A DNA stretch of 36,537 bases from a virus, in the IMG/VR virus record IMGVR_UViG_3300037521_000139, positions 1 through 36,537 of that record. One strand, given 5' to 3'. Below the pieces are notes generated by a model. It was not told where the DNA came from. It worked only from the letters and a program-made list of their open reading frames with translations, and ran no database searches. Of the stretch, positions 2,234 through 35,922 are shown piece by piece (the stretch's first letter is position 1; the number at the start of each line of letters is the position of its first letter). The position numbers were made by a program, and so were the translations under genes.

Positions 2234-3307
2234 ATGGCCGACCAGCCGCTCCCGACGCTTTCCCGGCAGATCAAGTTCGGGCAAGCCGAAATGTCGAAGA
2301 TCCTCCTTGCCGCCCGCGAGTCGATAGAATCCCGCATTACCACGCTTTCCAAATCACGCAAGCTCCTACGCAAGCGCGAACGTGAGAGGATGTACCGCGG
2401 CATAGGCTCTATCTACGAGGAGCTTGACGGCGAGATATCCAGGTGGGCCGATGAATTGGCCGTAAGGACCGGCGACGCCGTAGGCAAAGAGACGTTCAAT
2501 GACATAGGCCAAAGAGCGGGCCTCACGAAGTTCTCACGCGAGCACGCGCAGGAATGGATGTCTATAGTAAACCCGAACAACCCAGCGCTGCTAGGCGCAT
2601 CTCAGACTGCTAGAAAGCCAACTCTGGGCGCATCTCAGACCGCCAGAATGAGCGTAGGCGACGTGTCGCAGCTACGATCTGCCACATTAGACGTGTTTCG
2701 CAAGTCTGCGATATCAGGCATGACGCAAGCGGCTATCTACCGCGAGCTCCGCGACAAGTTCGACAACCTGGCCGGCGGCGGCTTGAACTCCTGGCAATTC
2801 ATCTCTCGAGACGGTAAGAAGTGGAAAAACTCCAACTATTTCAACATGCTTACACGCACAGTATCCACTACAGTAGCCAGGGAGGCCTCTGCGGACGCCA
2901 TAGTCGACACCGGTAACGACTTAGCTACCATTGAGGGCGGCGGCGATCCCTGCCCCGTATGCTCCAACTGGCGAGGCGTAATCGTGTCCGTCACGGGCAA
3001 CGACACGCGGTTTCCCTCCAAGCAGCAAGCTATCGACTCGGGGGTATGGCATCCTAATTGCGTTTGTATGCTCCGCTACGTAGACCCGGACGCCTTCCCC
3101 GAAGAGATAGAGGCGCAGGCCAAGCTCGCCAATCCCGATAAGCCCACGAATAAGGAGTGGAACGCCTACGCGGAACGGATCCAGAACAAGGCCGAGCCTA
3201 GGATTGCCATAACCGAGAAAGGCGGGGCTCTACGTGTCAGCAATCGCAAAGATGCGAAGCTCAAGGACGATAACGTGGGTTCGGGCGAGGTTGAGCCTAC
3301 AAGCTAA
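2234..3307 (+). CDS. Minor capsid protein, SPP1 gp7 / Mu F-like
   Basis: This 357-residue protein has a helical, charged N-terminal half and the family's C-terminal cysteine/histidine cluster: GGGDPCPVCSNWRG (about residues 235-248) and GVWHPNCVCMLRYV (about 270-283), a CxxC...HxxCxC metal-binding pattern typical of Mu F/SPP1 gp7 head-morphogenesis proteins. In relatives such proteins sit inside the head near the portal and may help DNA ejection. Residues 118-136 hold a duplicated LGASQTAR unit (11-residue period; DNA copies at 2594-2607 and 2627-2640). The extreme 3' end overlaps a degenerate late-motif copy. Confidence 0.82.
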   Translation: MADQPLPTLSRQIKFGQAEMSKILLAARESIESRITTLSKSRKLLRKRERERMYRGIGSIYEELDGEISRWADELAVRTGDAVGKETFNDIGQRAGLTKFSREHAQEWMSIVNPNNPALLGASQTARKPTLGASQTARMSVGDVSQLRSATLDVFRKSAISGMTQAAIYRELRDKFDNLAGGGLNSWQFISRDGKKWKNSNYFNMLTRTVSTTVAREASADAIVDTGNDLATIEGGGDPCPVCSNWRGVIVSVTGNDTRFPSKQQAIDSGVWHPNCVCMLRYVDPDAFPEEIEAQAKLANPDKPTNKEWNAYAERIQNKAEPRIAITEKGGALRVSNRKDAKLKDDNVGSGEVEPTS

Positions 3308-3314
3308 GGCCAAA
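3297..3314 (+). promoter_or_regulatory. Degenerate late motif copy (CTACAA-N4-AGGCCAAA)
   Basis: CTACAA at 3297-3302 and AGGCCAAA at 3307-3314 keep the exact spacing of the five better copies but have two mismatches. It lies at the end of the minor capsid gene, upstream of the neck genes. It is weaker evidence than the other copies and may be chance. Confidence 0.4.
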
Positions 3315-4324: not shown

Positions 4325-4342
4325 CTTCAAGCATAGGCCAAT
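4325..4342 (+). promoter_or_regulatory. Putative late promoter motif before major tail gene
   Basis: CTTCAA (4325-4330), four bases, AGGCCAAT (4335-4342), then AGAAA. It lies directly after the tail-terminator stop and 27 bases before the major tail protein start. The motif matches the copies at 9696, 30145, 33085 and 35905 with identical spacing. I infer a promoter for the phage sigma factor; a repressor or RNA element is possible. Confidence 0.65.
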
Positions 4343-9695: not shown

Positions 9696-9713
9696 CTTCA
9701 ATTTAGGGCCAAT
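9696..9713 (+). promoter_or_regulatory. Putative late promoter motif before fibre gene
   Basis: CTTCAA (9696-9701), four bases, GGGCCAAT (9706-9713), followed by ATAAA. It occupies the only gap (9694-9736) between the two big tail genes, 23 bases before the fibre start. Same spacing as the other late motif copies. Confidence 0.65.
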
Positions 9714-13829: not shown

Positions 13830-14279
13830 ATGGCCTTCTTAACGGGGAACCTGAAAACCGAACAACTCCTCGACCCGCCCTACAACGGCAAGCAGTACAT
13901 GCTCTTGGAGGGCGTCAGGTACAGGCTTAAGGGCCACGACTACCACGCGCCCGCCGGCTTTATATGCGATCTTACCTCCATGCCTCGGCCCGCGAGGGTT
14001 CTTTTCAATAAAGAGGGCCGGCATACCCTGGCCGCCGTCATCCACGATCGCCTATACCAAACGCAGGAAGTCACGAGGGATGTTGCGGACTACATATTCT
14101 ATAGGGCCATGCTGGATTGCTACGTCCCGCCGAAACCTCCAAAGAGCAAGATCCGCAGGCTAATGGTGGCCATTGCCAGGAAATCTTATGAGGCGAAGTG
14201 CTTGACCCTATGGATGGGCGTTAAGGCCGGGGGCTGGATAGCGTGGAATCGGCACAAAAGAAACCTCCGTGATGGATAA
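13830..14279 (+). CDS. DUF1353 family phage protein
   Basis: The 149-residue product carries the DUF1353 signature: HAPAGFICDLTSMPRPARVLFNKEGRHTLAAVIHDRLYQTQ. The ordered Asp, Arg, His-Asp residues (D in ICDLTS, H-D in VIHDRLY) are the family's conserved polar set. Members occur widely in tailed phages next to lysis or tail genes; the biochemical role is not settled. It is the last gene of the late module, followed by a noncoding region with hairpins and the early promoter. Confidence 0.82.
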   Translation: MAFLTGNLKTEQLLDPPYNGKQYMLLEGVRYRLKGHDYHAPAGFICDLTSMPRPARVLFNKEGRHTLAAVIHDRLYQTQEVTRDVADYIFYRAMLDCYVPPKPPKSKIRRLMVAIARKSYEAKCLTLWMGVKAGGWIAWNRHKRNLRDG

Positions 14280-14280
14280 A

Positions 14281-14403
14281 CCATAACGCTATGGCTTATT
14301 CAAAAGTGCTATATTTTAGTACTTCACGACCATATCGCCTCCGTTATGGTCAAATACCCCCATTAAGTGACTAATTAAAATAAGTCAAAGAAATGTGTTA
14401 TAG
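14281..14403 (+). promoter_or_regulatory. Late/early boundary: hairpins and TGTGTTATAG element
   Basis: The start of this noncoding gap (14280-14463) holds several inverted repeats: CCATA/TATGG (14281-14294), AAGTGCTA/TAGTACTT with one mismatch, and a perfect 7-base stem GACCATA/TATGGTC (14328-14334 and 14345-14351, loop 10). An AT-rich tract follows and then TGTGTTATAG (14394-14403), shared with the control region near 35797. The 7-base hairpin may end late transcription; no T-tract follows it. Confidence 0.5.
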
Positions 14404-14407
14404 GGAC

Positions 14408-14441
14408 TTGACGTATATACGGGAGTAGTGTTTACTATAGA
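14408..14441 (+). promoter_or_regulatory. Early promoter with palindromic operator
   Basis: TTGACG at 14408-14413 is a good -35 box; TTTACT (14431-14436) lies 17 bases downstream and TACTAT (14433-14438) 19 bases downstream. The -35 overlaps the perfect palindrome CGTATATACG (14412-14421). Nearly the same promoter appears on the minus strand at 35702-35674, sharing CTTGACGTATATACGGG and TACTATAGATA. It should drive the early module; the palindrome suggests binding of a dimeric regulator. Confidence 0.75.
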
Positions 14442-14463
14442 TAGTCAAACGAAAGGGCTACCA

Positions 14464-14556
14464 ATGAGCAAGGGCTACACAATCACGACGCACAAGGACG
14501 CAGCCGGGAAAACGGTAGTTGTATATCACCTACTCGAAATTAAAAAGGGGAAATGA
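14464..14556 (+). CDS. First early gene: 30-residue peptide
   Basis: ATG 14464 is preceded by GAAAGGG at a good distance, and the stop overlaps the next start (ATGA). The product is 30 residues with basic and beta-prone character (GYTITTHKD then KTVVVYHLLEIKK). Good ribosome site, promoter just upstream and coupling to the next gene support expression. It may be a leader peptide or a small host-takeover protein; nothing in the sequence decides this. Confidence 0.6.
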   Translation: MSKGYTITTHKDAAGKTVVVYHLLEIKKGK

Positions 14557-14753
14557 TGAAATCAATATACATAGGCTACAACATATGGGAACGCCGATTC
14601 CAAGACGAGGACGGCAACACCGTCGAGCGGGGTGAAGTAGCTCAACTCGTTGACTCTGGCAGGCTTGACGCGACGATGATGGCGCAGCGCCTTATAACAC
14701 AGTTCGGCTACGACCACGACGCGCTTTTGAAGTTCTACGGAGAAGGGGCATAA
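14553..14753 (+). CDS. Small early protein, unknown
   Basis: This 66-residue soluble protein is coupled to the peptide gene before it (ATGA). It starts with a short strand (KSIYIGYNIWERRF) that looks like a tyrosine-rich beta hairpin, then helices (RGEVAQLVDSGRLDATMMAQRLITQFGYD). As the second gene after the early promoter it may act soon after infection. Family not recognised. Confidence 0.65.
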   Translation: MMKSIYIGYNIWERRFQDEDGNTVERGEVAQLVDSGRLDATMMAQRLITQFGYDHDALLKFYGEGA

Positions 14754-14755
14754 TC

Positions 14756-15163
14756 ATGCCGGAAATCATCCACAGCTCGATGCAAATGAGCCTGATCATA
14801 GCATTTCTAGGCCCGCTAATAGGCGGCGGCATGGCTTACGCTTTCTGCAAATACCGCGATAGAAAGGGCGTGTTCTTCATTAAGTGCGGTGATAATTGGC
14901 ACACCGTACTCGCGCACTCTAGGGGCGAGGCCGCATCCAATGCCGTCAAGTCGGATATGTTCATCGACCCGATCGACGACGTGCTAAACCTGGACGAGTA
15001 CAAATTCCAGTTTCCGGGGTCGTATCACGCATCCTTCTTTAACCGATGCGACAATAGCAGCAAACGTGTGGAAACGGCCCCCAGCATGAGCGCTATCAAA
15101 CGATCGTCACAGCTAACGTCTAAGGATAAGGGGACCGCGTCTAGGGCCGTATACGGCATCTGA
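14756..15163 (+). CDS. Early membrane-anchored protein
   Basis: The 135-residue product has one N-terminal membrane span at about residues 10-30 (MSLIIAFLGPLIGGGMAYAF), followed by a basic stop-transfer segment (CKYRDRKG), so the bulk probably faces the cytoplasm. The C-terminal half is Ser/Lys-rich and likely flexible. It lies in the first early genes. A host-takeover or superinfection role at the inner membrane is possible but only inferred. Confidence 0.6.
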   Translation: MPEIIHSSMQMSLIIAFLGPLIGGGMAYAFCKYRDRKGVFFIKCGDNWHTVLAHSRGEAASNAVKSDMFIDPIDDVLNLDEYKFQFPGSYHASFFNRCDNSSKRVETAPSMSAIKRSSQLTSKDKGTASRAVYGI

Positions 15164-15221
15164 GGGCGTTTTAGGCGTCGGGTCGTATTATTAGTCAAGT
15201 AAAAGAAGGGAATGGGGCTTA

Positions 15222-15422
15222 ATGAAGATAATGAATGAAGATATAGACCTAATCTACTCGCCCGACGATGGCGGCTGGTATTTCCATCGCTACTCCGATG
15301 ACCACATAAGCAAGACCTACAAGAGCGAAGAAAAAGCTATGCGCGATTGGCGCTATGTAGAGGCGGGATGGCCTAAGAGAATCAAATGGACCCCCTTGGT
15401 CCGCCGGCGGGCCGCGAAATGA
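15222..15422 (+). CDS. Small early protein, unknown
   Basis: The 66-residue product follows a 58-base gap that holds a GAAGGGAATGGGG ribosome-site-like stretch. It has a Trp/Tyr-rich start (IYSPDDGGWYFHRYSDDHISKTYKSEEKAMRDW) and a basic end. The next gene begins in its ATGA. The GGWYF pattern is common in small phage proteins of unknown role. No function assigned. Confidence 0.6.
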   Translation: MKIMNEDIDLIYSPDDGGWYFHRYSDDHISKTYKSEEKAMRDWRYVEAGWPKRIKWTPLVRRRAAK

Positions 15423-15628
15423 GCGAAATAGTCAAAGAACTACGCGAGATAGAGGCATTGACCTGTCTCACGACGCGGCACCGCATGGCGCTTGAGTACA
15501 CCATAGACCATTTGCAACGCCGCTCCCCGGCCTTCCCGGACGAGCACGAGAACGATCTATGGCGCGAGCGGTATGCAGCGGGTGACACGATCGACACGGA
15601 GGCGCTAGCCGATGACCTTCAATCCTGA
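15419..15628 (+). CDS. Small helical early protein
   Basis: The start is ATG 15419 within ATGA of the previous stop; the longer frame from 15386 would run through that gene. The 69-residue product is helical and charged (EIVKELREIEALTCLTTRHRMALEYTIDHLQRR), with an acidic tail. Helical two-part layout suggests a small regulatory or structural peptide. Family not recognised. Confidence 0.6.
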   Translation: MSEIVKELREIEALTCLTTRHRMALEYTIDHLQRRSPAFPDEHENDLWRERYAAGDTIDTEALADDLQS

Positions 15629-15737
15629 CGCGACATGGCACGGCTACATGGTAACGGTGGTTTTCTTTTTCCTGTTGCTCACCGTTGCTGTGGGCGGAAT
15701 CTACTACGATTGGGAAAGGAAGCACTTCGACGGTTGA
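15612..15737 (+). CDS. 41-residue single-span membrane protein
   Basis: ATG 15612 lies inside the end of the previous gene (17-base overlap). Residues about 13-32 are strongly hydrophobic (MVTVVFFFLLLTVAVGGIYY) and are followed by a charged tail (DWERKHFDG). The hydrophobic profile in this frame makes a real membrane peptide likely. Its end overlaps a promoter-like TTGACA. It is one of a series of tiny membrane proteins in the early module. Confidence 0.55.
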   Translation: MTFNPDATWHGYMVTVVFFFLLLTVAVGGIYYDWERKHFDG

Positions 15738-15763
15738 CATTAGGTATATACTTAGAGTACATT
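15734..15763 (+). promoter_or_regulatory. Second early promoter candidate
   Basis: A perfect -35 TTGACA (15734-15739) is followed after 18 bases by TACATT (15758-15763). GTATATAC (15744-15751) lies in the spacer, the same palindromic core as in the promoters at 14412 and 35689. It precedes the recombination genes (ERF, SSB), which would let them be expressed and controlled together with the first early genes. Confidence 0.55.
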
Positions 15764-15788
15764 GTATGGAACAAAACGAGAGGGCGAG

Positions 15789-15959
15789 ATGGCATCAAGA
15801 GAAAACAGAAAGCAGCGTAACTTCAAGGAATCGCAGGCGTGGTGGAATAGGGCTTTCTCCCTTGTCGAATCAGGTTTAGCGGCAAGTGTAAGCGCGATCT
15901 ACCGCAAGGGCGGGCGTAAAGAAATCAAGCGGCTCGAGAGAGCGGAGGGGGCGAAATGA
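15789..15959 (+). CDS. Small basic protein before ERF
   Basis: The start at ATG 15789 has GAGGGCGAG upstream. The 56-residue product is very basic (MASRENRKQRNFKESQAWW ... RKGGRKEIKRLERAEGAK), with a helical middle, suggesting nucleic-acid binding. It overlaps the ERF start by four bases (ATGA), so it may cooperate in replication or recombination. No family known to me. Confidence 0.6.
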   Translation: MASRENRKQRNFKESQAWWNRAFSLVESGLAASVSAIYRKGGRKEIKRLERAEGAK

Positions 15960-18857: not shown

Positions 18858-19021
18858 GTGATAAGGGTGAATGGAAGGAGAAAAACGATATGCTACACGA
18901 CTCAGTTCGGTCTGCTTTGGGGCGGGGCAAATCGCTACCCAGCGCGATACTCTATGGGATACTGCGAGGCGAGGCAGAGGGCTTTGTTGAGCCTGTAACA
19001 AGGAGCCAAGGCCATGAGTGA
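18854..19021 (+). CDS. Small basic helical protein
   Basis: The true start is taken as ATG 18854 in the ATGA overlap, giving 55 residues. It has a charged start (SDKGEWKEKNDMLHDSVRSALGRGKSLPS) and a short amphipathic helix. Its last 8 bases overlap the Lar-like gene. No function can be assigned. Confidence 0.55.
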   Translation: MSDKGEWKEKNDMLHDSVRSALGRGKSLPSAILYGILRGEAEGFVEPVTRSQGHE

Positions 19022-19304
19022 GCTATTACCGTGTCCGTTCTGTGGATCAACAGAAACAAAGGCTTGGAAAGCTAATACTGATCCGTGGCAACGGCTACAG
19101 TGCGCCAAGTGTAATGCAGTGGGTCCAGTATTCGGATTACCACCACATGATGCAGACGGAGGGGAAGCGTTTTGGAACACCCGCACCCTAGACGTTGATA
19201 AGCTGGCGGGGGAGATATTAGAGGCGCTTGGGTATCCGCCAGTTATGTTCGGTAAAGACGCAATCAAATCCATCCTCACCAAACACCTACAGAAGCAACC
19301 ATGA
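19014..19304 (+). CDS. Lar-like restriction alleviation protein
   Basis: The 96-residue product has the Lar-family zinc ribbon: LLPCPFCGSTET near the N-terminus, then WQRLQCAKCNAVGPVF and the downstream acidic AFWNTRTLD pattern (compare EAIEAWNxR). Lar proteins of lambdoid phages and relatives reduce type I restriction, probably by changing host modification activity. In this genome it goes with a Mom-like protein and a methyltransferase. A helical C-terminal extension follows. Call rests on the CPFCG...CxxC...WN pattern. Confidence 0.75.
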   Translation: MSELLPCPFCGSTETKAWKANTDPWQRLQCAKCNAVGPVFGLPPHDADGGEAFWNTRTLDVDKLAGEILEALGYPPVMFGKDAIKSILTKHLQKQP

Positions 19305-21824: not shown

Positions 21825-22733
21825 ATGGGCAAGACCATATACAACGCAAAGCAGCAAGACGGGTTAGTGAAGAAGGCCAGGGCCGGTGATGAAAATGCGA
21901 CAAGCGCGCTCTACGCACAGTCCTACGACGACCTTTGTTTCTTCGCACGCAAGTATCGGTGCAGTCGTGCCGGCTTCGATGATCTTTTGAGCGAGGCAAA
22001 GATTGGATTTATGCGCGCTCTCATGGGGCGGGGCGAGGGCTACTCGGACTACGACCCGAAGAATAGATGCACGTTTCGAAGCTACGCGCTTATATGGATT
22101 CGCAGGTATACGCAATGGTACTGCATGGTTTCCAGCCGCCTCATCGAAGTACCGAGCAACGCCACGCAACTACTCGCAAAGGCTTGTAGGTATTCAGAAG
22201 AGTGCGCTAAATTGGGGGAGGATCTACCGGACGCCAATAAAATAGCCGCGCATTTCGACGTTAAGGTGAGGGTTGCCGAGGCTATTCTCAGGTCTATGCG
22301 ATGGGTTCAGTCCTTTGACGCGCCCATCGAACTGAGGGAGGGTTCCGGGTCAATACACGAAGTAATTTCCGGTAGCAATGTAGATATCGACTACAAGGAG
22401 GGCCGCGACAAGTCCGTAGAGCGCGACTTCATGGCCGAGGACTTTCTTAGGCAGTGCATTATGCGGCTCAAGCCGGAATACGCCGACATCATAACGAGAT
22501 ACTACGGCCTCGACGCGGACCCGCAAACGCTCATGCAGATTTCCAAGGATCTCGGATGCAGCAGGGATAATATAGGTCAAAAACGTATACGGGCCGTGGC
22601 GGACTTGAAAAACATAGCCAACGGTATCACCTACGCCGATAGAAGTAGGTACTTATCATATATACACGACCGCGACGCTGCCGGCCCGGAAGGGCAATAC
22701 TTAGAAGTGAGTTTAAGCGCGGGGAGGGGATAA
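21825..22733 (+). CDS. Phage-encoded sigma-70 family transcription factor
   Basis: The 302-residue protein has a full sigma layout. Region 2: AGDENATSALYAQSYDDLCFFARKYRCS, then FDDLLSEAKIGFMRALMGRGEGYSDYDPKNRCTFRSYALIWIRRYTQWY, aligned with the DLIQEGNIGLxRAxxxFDxxxxxxFSTYAxWWIRQ core; RLIEVPSN matches the R-P-N that follows. Region 3-like helix lies near residues 120-160. Region 4: ADIITRYYGLDADPQTLMQISKDLGCSRDNIGQKRIRAVADLKN, a clear helix-turn-helix. It should redirect host RNA polymerase to other promoters, very likely the repeated late motif. GGAGG lies upstream. Region 1.1 is missing. Confidence 0.88.
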   Translation: MGKTIYNAKQQDGLVKKARAGDENATSALYAQSYDDLCFFARKYRCSRAGFDDLLSEAKIGFMRALMGRGEGYSDYDPKNRCTFRSYALIWIRRYTQWYCMVSSRLIEVPSNATQLLAKACRYSEECAKLGEDLPDANKIAAHFDVKVRVAEAILRSMRWVQSFDAPIELREGSGSIHEVISGSNVDIDYKEGRDKSVERDFMAEDFLRQCIMRLKPEYADIITRYYGLDADPQTLMQISKDLGCSRDNIGQKRIRAVADLKNIANGITYADRSRYLSYIHDRDAAGPEGQYLEVSLSAGRG

Positions 22734-25075: not shown

Positions 25076-25269
25076 TGACTTGGGATTTCAGAGTAATCAA
25101 GGAAAATGGGCAAGCCTACATAGGCGAGGTCTATTACGAGAACGGCAAACGTGTCGCGCATACCGGCCCGGTCGAACTATACGGAGACGACCTTCTCGAT
25201 TTGATATGGGCATGGTTTCACATGGGCAAGGCGTTTTTCAAGCCCACGCTAACGAAGGATGATTTCTAG
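25075..25269 (+). CDS. Small soluble protein, unknown
   Basis: From ATG 25075 (TAATG overlap) the product is 64 residues with a beta-rich start (TWDFRVIKENGQAYIGEVYYENGKRVAHTGPVEL) and an aromatic helix (DLLDLIWAWFHMGKAFF). The sequence is typical of small accessory phage proteins. No function can be given. The TAG stop also shows TAG is a normal stop here. Confidence 0.65.
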   Translation: MTWDFRVIKENGQAYIGEVYYENGKRVAHTGPVELYGDDLLDLIWAWFHMGKAFFKPTLTKDDF

Positions 25270-25282
25270 TGGGAGCTTTTCT

Positions 25283-25828
25283 ATGCAGTGGCTAGCAGAG
25301 CTATGGGATAAGATAATCAGCCTGTTTCCGCGGCTCGTCATACTAGAGCCGAACCAGGCCGGCGTTGTCCTCCGCTTGGGCAAGCCCATCAAGAAGGATT
25401 GCCGCATGGGCTGGTACATACTAGCGCCCATAATCGACGACATGGACTACATCGAGCTCCCCACGCGCCCGCTCTACACGCGAGAGCAGTCTATTACGAA
25501 CCTCGCCGGCTACTCCATAGGCTTCTCCGGCGTGCTCGAGTGGAAGATAAAGAACGCCTACCTGGCGATGTATAACACGGCGGATGTGGAGGAATCACTC
25601 ACCGGCCTAGCGATGGGCGTATCGGCCAAGCACGTCAAGGACACATCAGAGCGGAACTGGCAGGAAATAGACGCAATACAGGAGCGAGTATTGTCTGAAA
25701 TCAACAAGGGGGCGTACGGATGGGGCGTCGAGATAAAGAGTTACAGGTTTTCGGATTACGTAAAGCACCGCGTTATCCGCATAATGTCATCGCAATCATC
25801 GCAGCAACCATCCTCGGAGGATGCGTGA
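25283..25828 (+). CDS. SPFH/Band-7 (stomatin/prohibitin-like) domain protein
   Basis: The 181-residue product from ATG 25283 (GGGAG upstream) shows the Band-7 pattern: LVILEPNQAGVVLRLGKPIKKDCRMGWYILAPIIDDMDYIELPTRPL (compare PGV-x-R-LGK...G-x-x-PP), a YSIGFSGVLEWKIKNAYLAMYNTADVEESL strand-and-helix region, and a helical C-terminal half with IDAIQERVLSEINKGAYGWGVEIKSYRF as in Band-7 proteins. Such proteins scaffold membrane microdomains and are sometimes found in phages. An amphipathic N-terminal segment (MQWLAELWDKIISLFPR) may anchor it. Role in infection is unknown. Confidence 0.72.
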   Translation: MQWLAELWDKIISLFPRLVILEPNQAGVVLRLGKPIKKDCRMGWYILAPIIDDMDYIELPTRPLYTREQSITNLAGYSIGFSGVLEWKIKNAYLAMYNTADVEESLTGLAMGVSAKHVKDTSERNWQEIDAIQERVLSEINKGAYGWGVEIKSYRFSDYVKHRVIRIMSSQSSQQPSSEDA

Positions 25829-27304: not shown

Positions 27305-27630
27305 GCATCTGCACACGATGCCCCTACGGGGCCGCAGACAGCGAAGGCAACATCCTTCCCGAGTACGCCGGCAAGGAGTGGAAGGATGTACCGTGCTCGG
27401 GATGTGAGCTCATACACGGCGCCATCAACGGAAAGGGAAGTAGCATACGATTCGACAACGACCGGCAGAACAGGAGCAAGACGTTTATCAGCCTGGATCA
27501 GCTTAAGCAGGGAGACGGGATGGACTTCGAATGCAACGGGAATAATCATACGCCCAACAGGATACTGAGCAAGTCGGATGAACCCGACCCCAGAATAGTG
27601 TTTATACCAAAGAGAAAGCTAATAAATTGA
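27301..27630 (+). CDS. Small cysteine-motif protein before a sigma-like HTH gene
   Basis: Starts at GTG 27301 (GTGA overlap). The 109-residue product has CTRCPYGAADSEGNILPEYAGKEWKDVPCSGCELIHG: two Cys pairs about 28 residues apart that would form a zinc site, followed by a polar beta part. This Cys arrangement before a DNA-binding partner gene suggests a regulator. Its stop overlaps the TTG start of the next gene. Confidence 0.6.
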   Translation: MSICTRCPYGAADSEGNILPEYAGKEWKDVPCSGCELIHGAINGKGSSIRFDNDRQNRSKTFISLDQLKQGDGMDFECNGNNHTPNRILSKSDEPDPRIVFIPKRKLIN

Positions 27631-27926
27631 CAACAGAAAACAACAGCTACGCCGCGGTTTCCGAGTTTCTAGCCTGGATGATGAAGGAGGAGCCCGAAGT
27701 CAGGGAGCAAGCCGTCAAGGGTTTGTACGCCTTCACGTCGAAGATGATGACCTTCGATGAACGCACACGACACATAGTCTTGAGCAAGCTCTACAACGAC
27801 GCCACGCTCAAGGAGATGGGCCAACGCTTCGGCATAACACCACATGCGGTGTGGCAGAGATGGCGTAAGGCTTGCAAGGATTGGCCGGAACTGGGTAAGG
27901 CGTTTAGCATAAAGGAGGCGGGATGA
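27627..27926 (+). CDS. Sigma-region-4-like helix-turn-helix protein
   Basis: Starts at TTG 27627 (TTGA overlap). The 99-residue product ends in a helix-turn-helix resembling sigma region 4: FDERTRHIVLSKLYNDATLKEMGQRFGITPHAVWQRWRKACKDW. The upstream part is helical (FLAWMMKEEPEVREQAVKGLYAFTSKMM). It lacks region 2, so it would not be a full sigma factor. It could bind DNA as a regulator or partner a transcription complex, giving a second regulator besides the gene at 21825. Confidence 0.65.
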   Translation: MTTENNSYAAVSEFLAWMMKEEPEVREQAVKGLYAFTSKMMTFDERTRHIVLSKLYNDATLKEMGQRFGITPHAVWQRWRKACKDWPELGKAFSIKEAG

Positions 27927-28926: not shown

Positions 28927-29004
28927 GGCCCCATCGTCTAGCCAGGTCCAGGACATCAGGTTTTCATCCTGAATACACGGGTTCAAATCCCGTTGGGGTC
29001 ACCA
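28927..29004 (+). tRNA. tRNA-Glu (UUC)
   Basis: Acceptor stem GGCCCCA pairs with TGGGGTC, followed by encoded ACCA. The D-arm is GTC...GAC, the anticodon arm is TCAGG-TTTTCAT-CCTGA with anticodon TTC, and the T-arm is CGGGT TCAAATC CCG-type (ACGGG TTCAAAT CCCGT). All parts are canonical, so it is probably functional and decodes GAA/GAG. Confidence 0.9.
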
Positions 29005-29010
29005 CTATGT

Positions 29011-29126
29011 GAGCGATGCGGCCTCACGCGGAGTGATACCCAGATAGATGATTCCGGCTAAGGCATGATCGAAAATCCGGCACTGATGGGTTATTGCCAC
29101 GGTAGGTGCGAATCCTGCCATCGCTC
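29011..29126 (+). ncRNA. tRNA-like element, oversized (116 nt)
   Basis: GAGCGAT(G) at 29011-29018 pairs with (C)ATCGCTC at 29119-29126. A T-arm-like hairpin GGTAGG-TGCGAAT-CCTGCC (29101-29119) adjoins the closing stem, and TCAC-GCGGA-GTGA (29024-29036) looks like a D-arm. GGCA/TGCC (29079-29082, 29095-29098) could be a long variable arm. The anticodon arm is not clear (GATT/AATC at 29050-29053 and 29074-29077 encloses 20 bases) and no CCA follows. It is a degenerate, expanded or intron-bearing tRNA, or a tRNA mimic. Confidence 0.45.
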
Positions 29127-29136
29127 ATTTGATTTG

Positions 29137-29213
29137 CGGCGGGTAGCTCAGTTGGATAGAGCGGCTGAGTTCTAATCAGCAAGTCAGGGGTTCGATTCCT
29201 CTCACGCCGACCA
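29137..29213 (+). tRNA. tRNA-Arg (UCU)
   Basis: Acceptor stem CGGCGGG pairs with CACGCCG (one G-A mismatch), followed by ACCA. The D-arm is GCTC-AGTTGGATA-GAGC, the anticodon arm GCTGA-GTTCTAA-TCAGC with anticodon TCT, and the T-arm AGGGG-TTCGATT-CCTCT. It reads AGA, a codon often rare in hosts, so it may help phage translation. Confidence 0.88.
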
Positions 29214-29394: not shown

Positions 29395-29556
29395 ATGAAA
29401 GAAGATACATGCAAGCACGATCCCGCGAACATCACCCGCACCCCCCACGTGTTTGCCGACTTGGCTATATGCAGCAAGTGCGGGGCAGATCTCGTGTGTT
29501 ACGATGTCGACAAGAACACCAAAGAGTACAAGGAATGGAGGGCGATAGAGTCATAG
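29395..29556 (+). CDS. Small zinc-finger protein overlapping mom-like gene (Com-like)
   Basis: The 53-residue product has CKH near the N-terminus and ICSKCGADLVCY later, a four-ligand zinc pattern. GGCGG lies before the start, and a 12-codon mini-ORF at 29360 is coupled to it. Its 3' end overlaps the mom-like gene by 22 bases. In phage Mu, Com is a small zinc-finger protein encoded just before and overlapping mom that activates mom translation, so this is a good candidate for an equivalent role. Sequence similarity to Mu Com itself was not seen; the inference is architectural. Confidence 0.65.
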   Translation: MKEDTCKHDPANITRTPHVFADLAICSKCGADLVCYDVDKNTKEYKEWRAIES

Positions 29557-30155
29557 ATTGCAACGTAGCTATAGGGGGCTTGAGGGATGAGGTGAGGGAT
29601 AGCATTATCCTGAATCATTACGCCCATTCTGTGCCGAGCGGTAAATCACATTACCTATTACACGGGGATGTCGTTGCCGTCTTCTCAATACCTGGAAACA
29701 GGAATATAGCAGGCTTCCTCCTTGGCCAAGATGCCCCGCCTGTGTGGGAATTGTCTAGGCTATGGGCTCCAGACGATCACGCCCCAAACGCTCTAACTAT
29801 GGCCATATCTGCGGCGGTGAGGACGTTTAAAGCGCTTGAACCCGCCGTAGCGGCCCTGGTGTCCTATGCAGACCCCAACGTCGGACATATTGGGGGCATC
29901 TATCGTGCGGCATCTTGGGCGTACTGCGGGCAATGCGAAGAGGGGCGATACTACGAAGACGGAAAGGGGCAGGTGGTAGCGCGTAGGAAGTTCCATAGCG
30001 GCAAGAGGGGTATGCGAAAGGCCGAAATAGAGGCAATGGGCTACACGGAAACGAAGAAACCCGGAAAGCATCGTTATGCTAGAGGGCTCACACGATGGGC
30101 GAGGGCGAGATTGCGAAAGAAGTTCCCAGAATTGGCGTTGCCATCTTCAATATAA
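29535..30155 (+). CDS. Mom-like DNA adenine modification protein
   Basis: From ATG 29535 the product has 206 residues; upstream in-frame residues overlap the zinc-finger gene and look non-coding. The core shows the Mom-family pattern: VVAVFSIPGNRNIAGFLLG, VWELSRLWAPDDHAPNALTMAISAAVRTF, then LVSYADPNVGHIGGIYRAASWAYCG, with the GH-x-GxIYxAxxW signature, and a basic C-terminus with GKHRYARGL. Mom of Mu converts adenines to a carbamoylmethyl form that blocks many restriction enzymes, and uses a GNAT-like fold. A late motif follows immediately downstream. Confidence 0.8.
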   Translation: MEGDRVIDCNVAIGGLRDEVRDSIILNHYAHSVPSGKSHYLLHGDVVAVFSIPGNRNIAGFLLGQDAPPVWELSRLWAPDDHAPNALTMAISAAVRTFKALEPAVAALVSYADPNVGHIGGIYRAASWAYCGQCEEGRYYEDGKGQVVARRKFHSGKRGMRKAEIEAMGYTETKKPGKHRYARGLTRWARARLRKKFPELALPSSI

Positions 30156-30162
30156 GGCCAAT
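30145..30162 (+). promoter_or_regulatory. Putative late promoter motif before methyltransferase/terminase genes
   Basis: CTTCAA (30145-30150), four bases, AGGCCAAT (30155-30162), then TTAGA. It overlaps the end of the mom-like gene and ends only 5 bases before ATG 30168, so a typical start site would give a nearly leaderless mRNA. The same motif with the same spacing occurs before other late genes. Confidence 0.65.
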
Positions 30163-33084: not shown

Positions 33085-33102
33085 CTTCAAGTTAAGGCCA
33101 AT
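33085..33102 (+). promoter_or_regulatory. Putative late promoter motif before portal gene
   Basis: CTTCAA (33085-33090), four bases, AGGCCAAT (33095-33102), then ATAAA. It fills the gap between terminase and portal, starting two bases after the terminase stop and 25 bases before ATG 33128. This copy is the closest to the consensus. Confidence 0.7.
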
Positions 33103-35631: not shown

Positions 35632-35673
35632 TTTCTTCTCCCAGTTGGTTGTTGGTTCCCTTTGCATATCTAT

Positions 35674-35702
35674 AGTAGACACCATCCCCGTATATACGTC
35701 AA
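35674..35702 (-). promoter_or_regulatory. Minus-strand early promoter with palindrome
   Basis: Read on the minus strand, TTGACG (35702-35697) is followed after 17 bases by TCTACT (35679-35674), with CGTATATACG (35698-35689) overlapping the -35. It is nearly identical over about 34 bases to the promoter at 14408. It points to the minus-strand operon at 35631-35195, so the two early units are probably controlled by the same regulator. Confidence 0.75.
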
Positions 35703-35904: not shown

Positions 35905-35922
35905 CTTCAATGCAAGGCCAAT
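35905..35922 (+). promoter_or_regulatory. Putative late promoter motif before scaffold/capsid genes
   Basis: CTTCAA (35905-35910), four bases, AGGCCAAT (35915-35922), then TATAC. It is 76 bases before the scaffold start, leaving a leader with a possible hairpin (CCGCACTTTGCGCGG near 35970-35984). The remaining noncoding DNA from 35838 to 35998 holds nothing else I can name. Confidence 0.65.

Follow-up and report, generated by a model that had tools for sequence, protein, structure and literature searches.

A compact two-part element, CTTCAA-N4-RGGCCAAT, recurs at the late-gene boundaries of a 36,537-base virus record, which was analysed at its full length and is called the window below. The initial annotation proposed that these sites form a set of late promoters, and their position and strand, the synteny in relatives and the placement of start codons and purines lend this good support. 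It is probable that this compact late promoter is read by host core polymerase together with the sigma factor that the phage encodes, and the part assigned to the sigma is moderately supported. Promoter function, reading by the sigma and late timing are what we infer from the element, its strand and positions, its layout in two relatives, the start-codon and purine placement and the sigma homology, all of which were read from the sequence.

Motif copies and genome layout

The window carries a 127-bp terminal repeat and was therefore taken as a closed genome of 36,410 bp, with nearly all genes on the + strand. The late region, which starts at ~29.4 kb, passes through the junction and ends at 14.3 kb, contains Mom-like, ParB-methyltransferase, terminase, portal, scaffold, capsid, head-tail, tape measure and fibre genes. 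The early module (14.5-28.8 kb) encodes Erf, SSB, a DnaD-like protein, the sigma factor and an exonuclease. CTTCAA-N4-RGGCCAAT had five exact matches, every one on the + strand and at a late-gene boundary, which together with a degenerate copy reproduced the sites listed in the initial annotation (predicted starts are discussed below):

4325-4342, + strand: exact motif copy, 5' of the major tail gene (4370); predicted start ~4346
9696-9713, + strand: exact motif copy, 5' of an 862-aa fibre-like gene (9737); predicted start ~9717
30145-30162, + strand: exact motif copy, 5' of the ParB-methyltransferase gene (30168) and terminase; predicted start ~30166
33085-33102, + strand: exact motif copy, 5' of the portal gene (33128); predicted start ~33106
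35905-35922, + strand: exact motif copy, 5' of the scaffold (~35999) and capsid genes; predicted start ~35926
3297-3314, + strand: degenerate motif copy with two mismatches, at a head-tail gene boundary

To guard against post-hoc bias, every 6-gap-6 word pair was counted on both strands of the whole genome, and nothing but this motif, counted together with its shifted and reverse-complement forms, occurred four or more times. A matrix built from the five exact sites scored them at 28.9-35.9 bits and the 3297 copy at 20.2 bits. The best score in 40 second-order Markov shuffles was 16.65 bits, and the observed scores were never reached. The earlier statement that the early module lacks the motif also held, with zero copies from 14.3 to 29.4 kb. 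Three of the five sites start 1-2 nt past the upstream stop codon. The A/T-rich run described 3' of the motif was found as A/T richness, but ATAAA itself is present at only two of the five sites. The scaffold start at ~35999 corresponds to the methionine at residue 20 of the 35942 ORF and agrees with the MKIKDIL of an ortholog in a relative (G2, see below).

Several other matches and readings were rejected. The copies at 3297 and 4325 have a third GCCAATA unit, which suggested an 11-bp direct repeat, but the other sites do not conserve it. Single-copy matches to CTTCAA-N4-AGGCCAAT in at least 118 viral contig stretches, one each among the matches listed, were attributed to chance, as was a match in L008, which is in-frame and coding.

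Other features of the window were recorded as well. Genes for tRNA-Glu and tRNA-Arg (28927-29213) separate the early module from the late region, and a third tRNA-like stretch at ~29.3 kb was seen by eye, with no ARAGORN call. A strong hairpin directly 3' of the capsid gene (1516-1593) may be an attenuator or an RNA-stabilising structure. A near-identical 36-bp pair of TTGACGTATATACGGGRNTRGTGTYTACTATAGATA (14408-14443, + strand; 35667-35702, - strand) probably represents host-type early promoters or operators, and the second copy would probably serve a small operon on the minus strand to the left of 35.7 kb. Repeats close to CTGTGTTATAGTG flank both of these early promoter regions (35718, 35742, 35796 and 14393 on the + strand, 14690 on the - strand); they are possible operator or extended -10 sites, and their overall count is weakly above chance. 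Proteins of note are a Lar-like restriction-alleviation protein (19014-19304, below the Pfam cut-off), an SPFH/Band 7 protein (25259-25828) and the Mom-like DNA-modification protein (29409-30155).

Diverged copies in relatives and the predicted transcription start

Relatives of the window phage were recovered by TerL and portal searches, and scanning them for the motif gave a divided answer: diverged copies were present in two fragments, G4 (16.1 kb) and G5 (22.8 kb), but none was found in G2, in G6 or on a contig from a metagenome-assembled genome (MAG). The portal proteins of G4 and G5 are 39-41% identical to that of the window, and the G5 capsid is 55% identical. Their repeated elements follow the pattern TTSAW-N5-GGCYWW on the + strand, and the G4 site TTGAATTCGTGGCCAAT bridges the window form and the diverged form. 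This pattern, which was tuned on the very sites it describes, matched 6 times in the window, 6 in G5 and 3 in G4 on the + strand, and 1, 0 and 0 times, respectively, on the - strand; the shuffle means per strand were 0.37, 0.23 and 0.17. One of the + strand matches in the window (19729) lies within an early gene and was taken as chance, and the other five are the motif sites. The stricter form TTGAWT-N4-GGCYNT occurred in G5 seven times on the + strand and never on the - strand, with a null mean of 0.05.

The sites in the relatives precede corresponding genes. Sites at the terminase small subunit were found in G4 (469) and G5 (8547), and the window copy at 30145 precedes the methyltransferase-terminase block. 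The portal gene has a site in the window (33085), G5 (10308) and, with one mismatch, G4 (2668); scaffold and capsid have sites in the window (35905) and G5 (11960 and 13602); and the major tail gene has sites in the window (4325), G5 (21005) and G4 (10954, assigned by position only).

The relatives that lack the element provide a further comparison. G2 (34,404 bp; TerL 57% and portal ~40% identical) also has a 127-bp terminal repeat and was therefore taken as complete. It contained neither a sigma region 2 nor the motif, and TTSAW-N5-GGCYWW was absent from its + strand, as it was from G6. The third relative, found through its portal, is a near-complete contig of 37.9 kb that was binned in a Verrucomicrobia MAG (TerL 52%). 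No motif was found within the 17.5 kb that were read, and the sole sigma region 2 found in this MAG sits on another contig, not on the phage one. The element and a detectable sigma are both missing in three other relatives, of which the whole and the near-whole one are informative. The intergenic gaps are longer in the window than in the motif-less G2, at 45 vs 13 nt before the portal gene, 46 vs 10 before the major tail gene and 43 vs 10 before the fibre gene, as the gain or loss of short promoter cassettes would predict. A separate feature of G2 (L007) is a tandem pair of diverged major capsid genes (14051-14887 and 14979-15815).

The distance from the element to the start codon points to the probable transcription start. 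At 5 of 17 sites the start codon lies exactly 20 bp past the first T; four of these are in G5 (terminase small subunit, portal, an 81-aa protein and a tail-completion-like protein) and one in G4 (portal). In the window, the ATG associated with the 30145 copy is 22 bp past the first T. The +20 position was picked from the five sites and tried on the remaining 12, all of which have a purine there, although this test is small; neighbouring positions behave otherwise. The base 20 bp past the first conserved T is therefore the probable transcription start. No Shine-Dalgarno sequence fits between the element and the +20 start codons, which implies leaderless transcripts or coupled translation at these sites. 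The predicted starts of the major tail, fibre and portal genes lie just 5' of their Shine-Dalgarno sites.

With transcription starting at that base, the element would span ~-21 to -4 and CTTCAA ~-21 to -16, so the initial interpretation of the motif as a compressed -35/-10 pair was abandoned. If CTTCAA were a -35 box, starts would fall inside or after the Shine-Dalgarno sites of three genes and cut them off. A classical sigma-70 pair was not apparent either, as no -10 element was found at 16-18 bp spacing 3' of CTTCAA. The GGCYWW block does not resemble known -10 elements and is close to the predicted start.

Candidate readers of the element

Two early genes of the window encode proteins with similarity to sigma factors:

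21825-22733, + strand: sigma-70-family protein of 302 aa with regions 2 to 4, identified by profile matches; candidate reader of the motif
27627-27926, + strand: 99-aa protein like sigma-70 region 4 (HTH); Pfam Sigma70_r4 1.8e-4 and NCBIfam sigma70-ECF 1.4e-4, both below cut-off

The full sigma-70-like protein named in the initial annotation was recovered with the NCBIfam RpoS model (E=6e-20, residues ~7-265), PHROG 351 (E=1e-27) and Pfam, where region 2 was above and region 4 below the cut-off; by its homology, the product of 21825-22733 is a genuine, divergent sigma-70-family protein. In sigma-70, residues Q437, T440 and W433 read the -12 base and R588 reads the -35 box. Their counterparts in the RpoS alignment are R, Q, I and G, and altered specificity is therefore predicted for the phage sigma. 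Single-sequence structure prediction gave no usable model (pLDDT 34), and no relatives of the sigma were found by peptide patterns in viral and genome collections. The small cyanosiphophages S-CBS3, S-LBS1 and KBS-S-2A likewise have small siphovirus-type genomes with one full-length sigma (~24% identity). The same word-pair search gave no repeated spaced motif at late boundaries in S-CBS3 and KBS-S-2A; in S-LBS1 it yielded no more than a repeat clustered near one end and a single pair with an 18-bp gap. A cyanobacterial host, suggested by weak sigma similarity alone, was rejected. Another phage with a sigma-like protein, Arthrobacter phage BaileyBlu (L024), has eight exact copies of CTGGCCGTCTCT, which are on one strand and mostly intergenic (19110, 20616, 22919, 26050, 28498, 35930, 37080 and 39373).

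In the proposed mechanism, TTSAW-N5-GGCYWW, with CTTCAA-N4-RGGCCAAT as its window form, would be the core late promoter, with transcription beginning at the purine 20 bp past the first conserved T. Once the early genes were made, the early-encoded sigma (21825-22733) would bind host core RNA polymerase and steer it to the element. Within the late region, whose genes share one orientation, this would add initiation events at the boundaries of terminase, portal, scaffold/capsid, major tail and fibre. Among the possible readers the sigma ranks first: it is the sole full promoter-specificity factor recognised, it is early-encoded, and both it and the motif are missing from G2 and from the MAG contig. 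The earlier suggestion that it directs polymerase to the motif is plausible and is backed indirectly by joint presence in the window and joint absence in one complete and one near-complete relative, but no sigma was found in the motif-sharing G4 and G5, both of which are incomplete fragments.

Alternatively, the 27627-27926 HTH protein could be what reads the element, as a late promoter or an activator site. It would act either alone with host holoenzyme, as for RinA or ArpU, or jointly with the phage sigma in a two-part factor, as for T4 gp55/gp33 and SPO1 gp33/gp34. This protein resembles sigma region 4, and its gene closes the early module and, like the sigma gene, is missing from G2; joint absence therefore cannot tell the two proteins apart. 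However, the match is weak, no close relatives were found, and a pure activator site needs a -10 element further downstream, of which no consistent example was seen and whose starts would cut off Shine-Dalgarno sites. We consider this reading unlikely but regard the protein as a genuine rival or partner of the sigma. Still less probable is reading by an unrecognised phage polymerase or a host alternative sigma in place of the encoded one, which the presence of the element in the apparently sigma-less fragments G4 and G5 would favour. The compact layout recalls the promoters of single-subunit polymerases, but no such polymerase was recognised among the scanned proteins of the closed 36.4-kb genome, all large ORFs included, and the window does encode a sigma.

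It is least likely that the element is no promoter and acts as an RNA-level element (a processing site or a translation signal) or as an oriented repressor site like the stoperators of mycobacteriophages. Its strand specificity, its intergenic position within what looks like one continuous operon, with no terminators where the copies lie, and its fixed distance from some start codons would suit such roles. A translation signal, however, does not fit an element that has start codons at +20 at some sites and far downstream, with Shine-Dalgarno sequences of their own, at others, and the window copies are confined to the late region.

Comparison with known phage sigma systems

Phage sigmas that redirect host polymerase are described in a few model phages, mostly large ones. 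If the proposed reading is true, the window phage would add a case in which a full sigma and six candidate promoters occur in a small genome, and its relatives, with their diverged versions of the promoter, would make sigma-promoter co-evolution testable. A two-part element lying wholly within ~20 bp of the start would call into question the idea that any sigma possessing regions 2 and 4 depends on a -10 element, with the -35 as an option. Tentatively, the element may represent an undescribed promoter class in a family of uncultured siphovirus-like phages: two-part, starting transcription 20 bp from its first base, frequently without a leader, and read by a divergent phage sigma, perhaps split with a separate sigma-4-like protein, with letters that drift and a geometry that is kept. 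In the literature searched, which is part of the whole, neither this two-part geometry nor its retention across a phage family under drifting letters was found.

Gp55 of T4 lacks a full region 4. A split or assisted late sigma is possible, as SPO1 shows (gp33 with gp34). T4 shows the same with gp55 and gp33 (PMC1524935). Late promoters dependent on a phage sigma are a known kind, with TATAAATA in T4 and TAATGTATA in phiEco32 and 7-11 (PMC1524935, PMC4331800), and the window resembles this kind in encoding a sigma-70-family protein and in having a repeated motif before late genes that is absent from early ones. The promoters dependent on phiEco32 gp36 and the phage 7-11 sigma, with the consensus TAATGTATA (PMC4331800), share with the present element a divergent phage sigma, a short repeated motif before structural genes and no need for a -35 element. 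They differ in having a single -10-like block, whereas the window has two blocks over ~18 bp with other letters, and their sigmas are not closely related to that of the window. The late promoters of T4, served by gp55 and gp33, carry TATAAATA at -13 to -6 (PMC1524935); there the element is one A/T-rich block, and the sliding clamp and gp33 are required. In the reading preferred here, T4 and the window phage would be alike in having a compact late promoter without a -35 element and a phage sigma as its reader.
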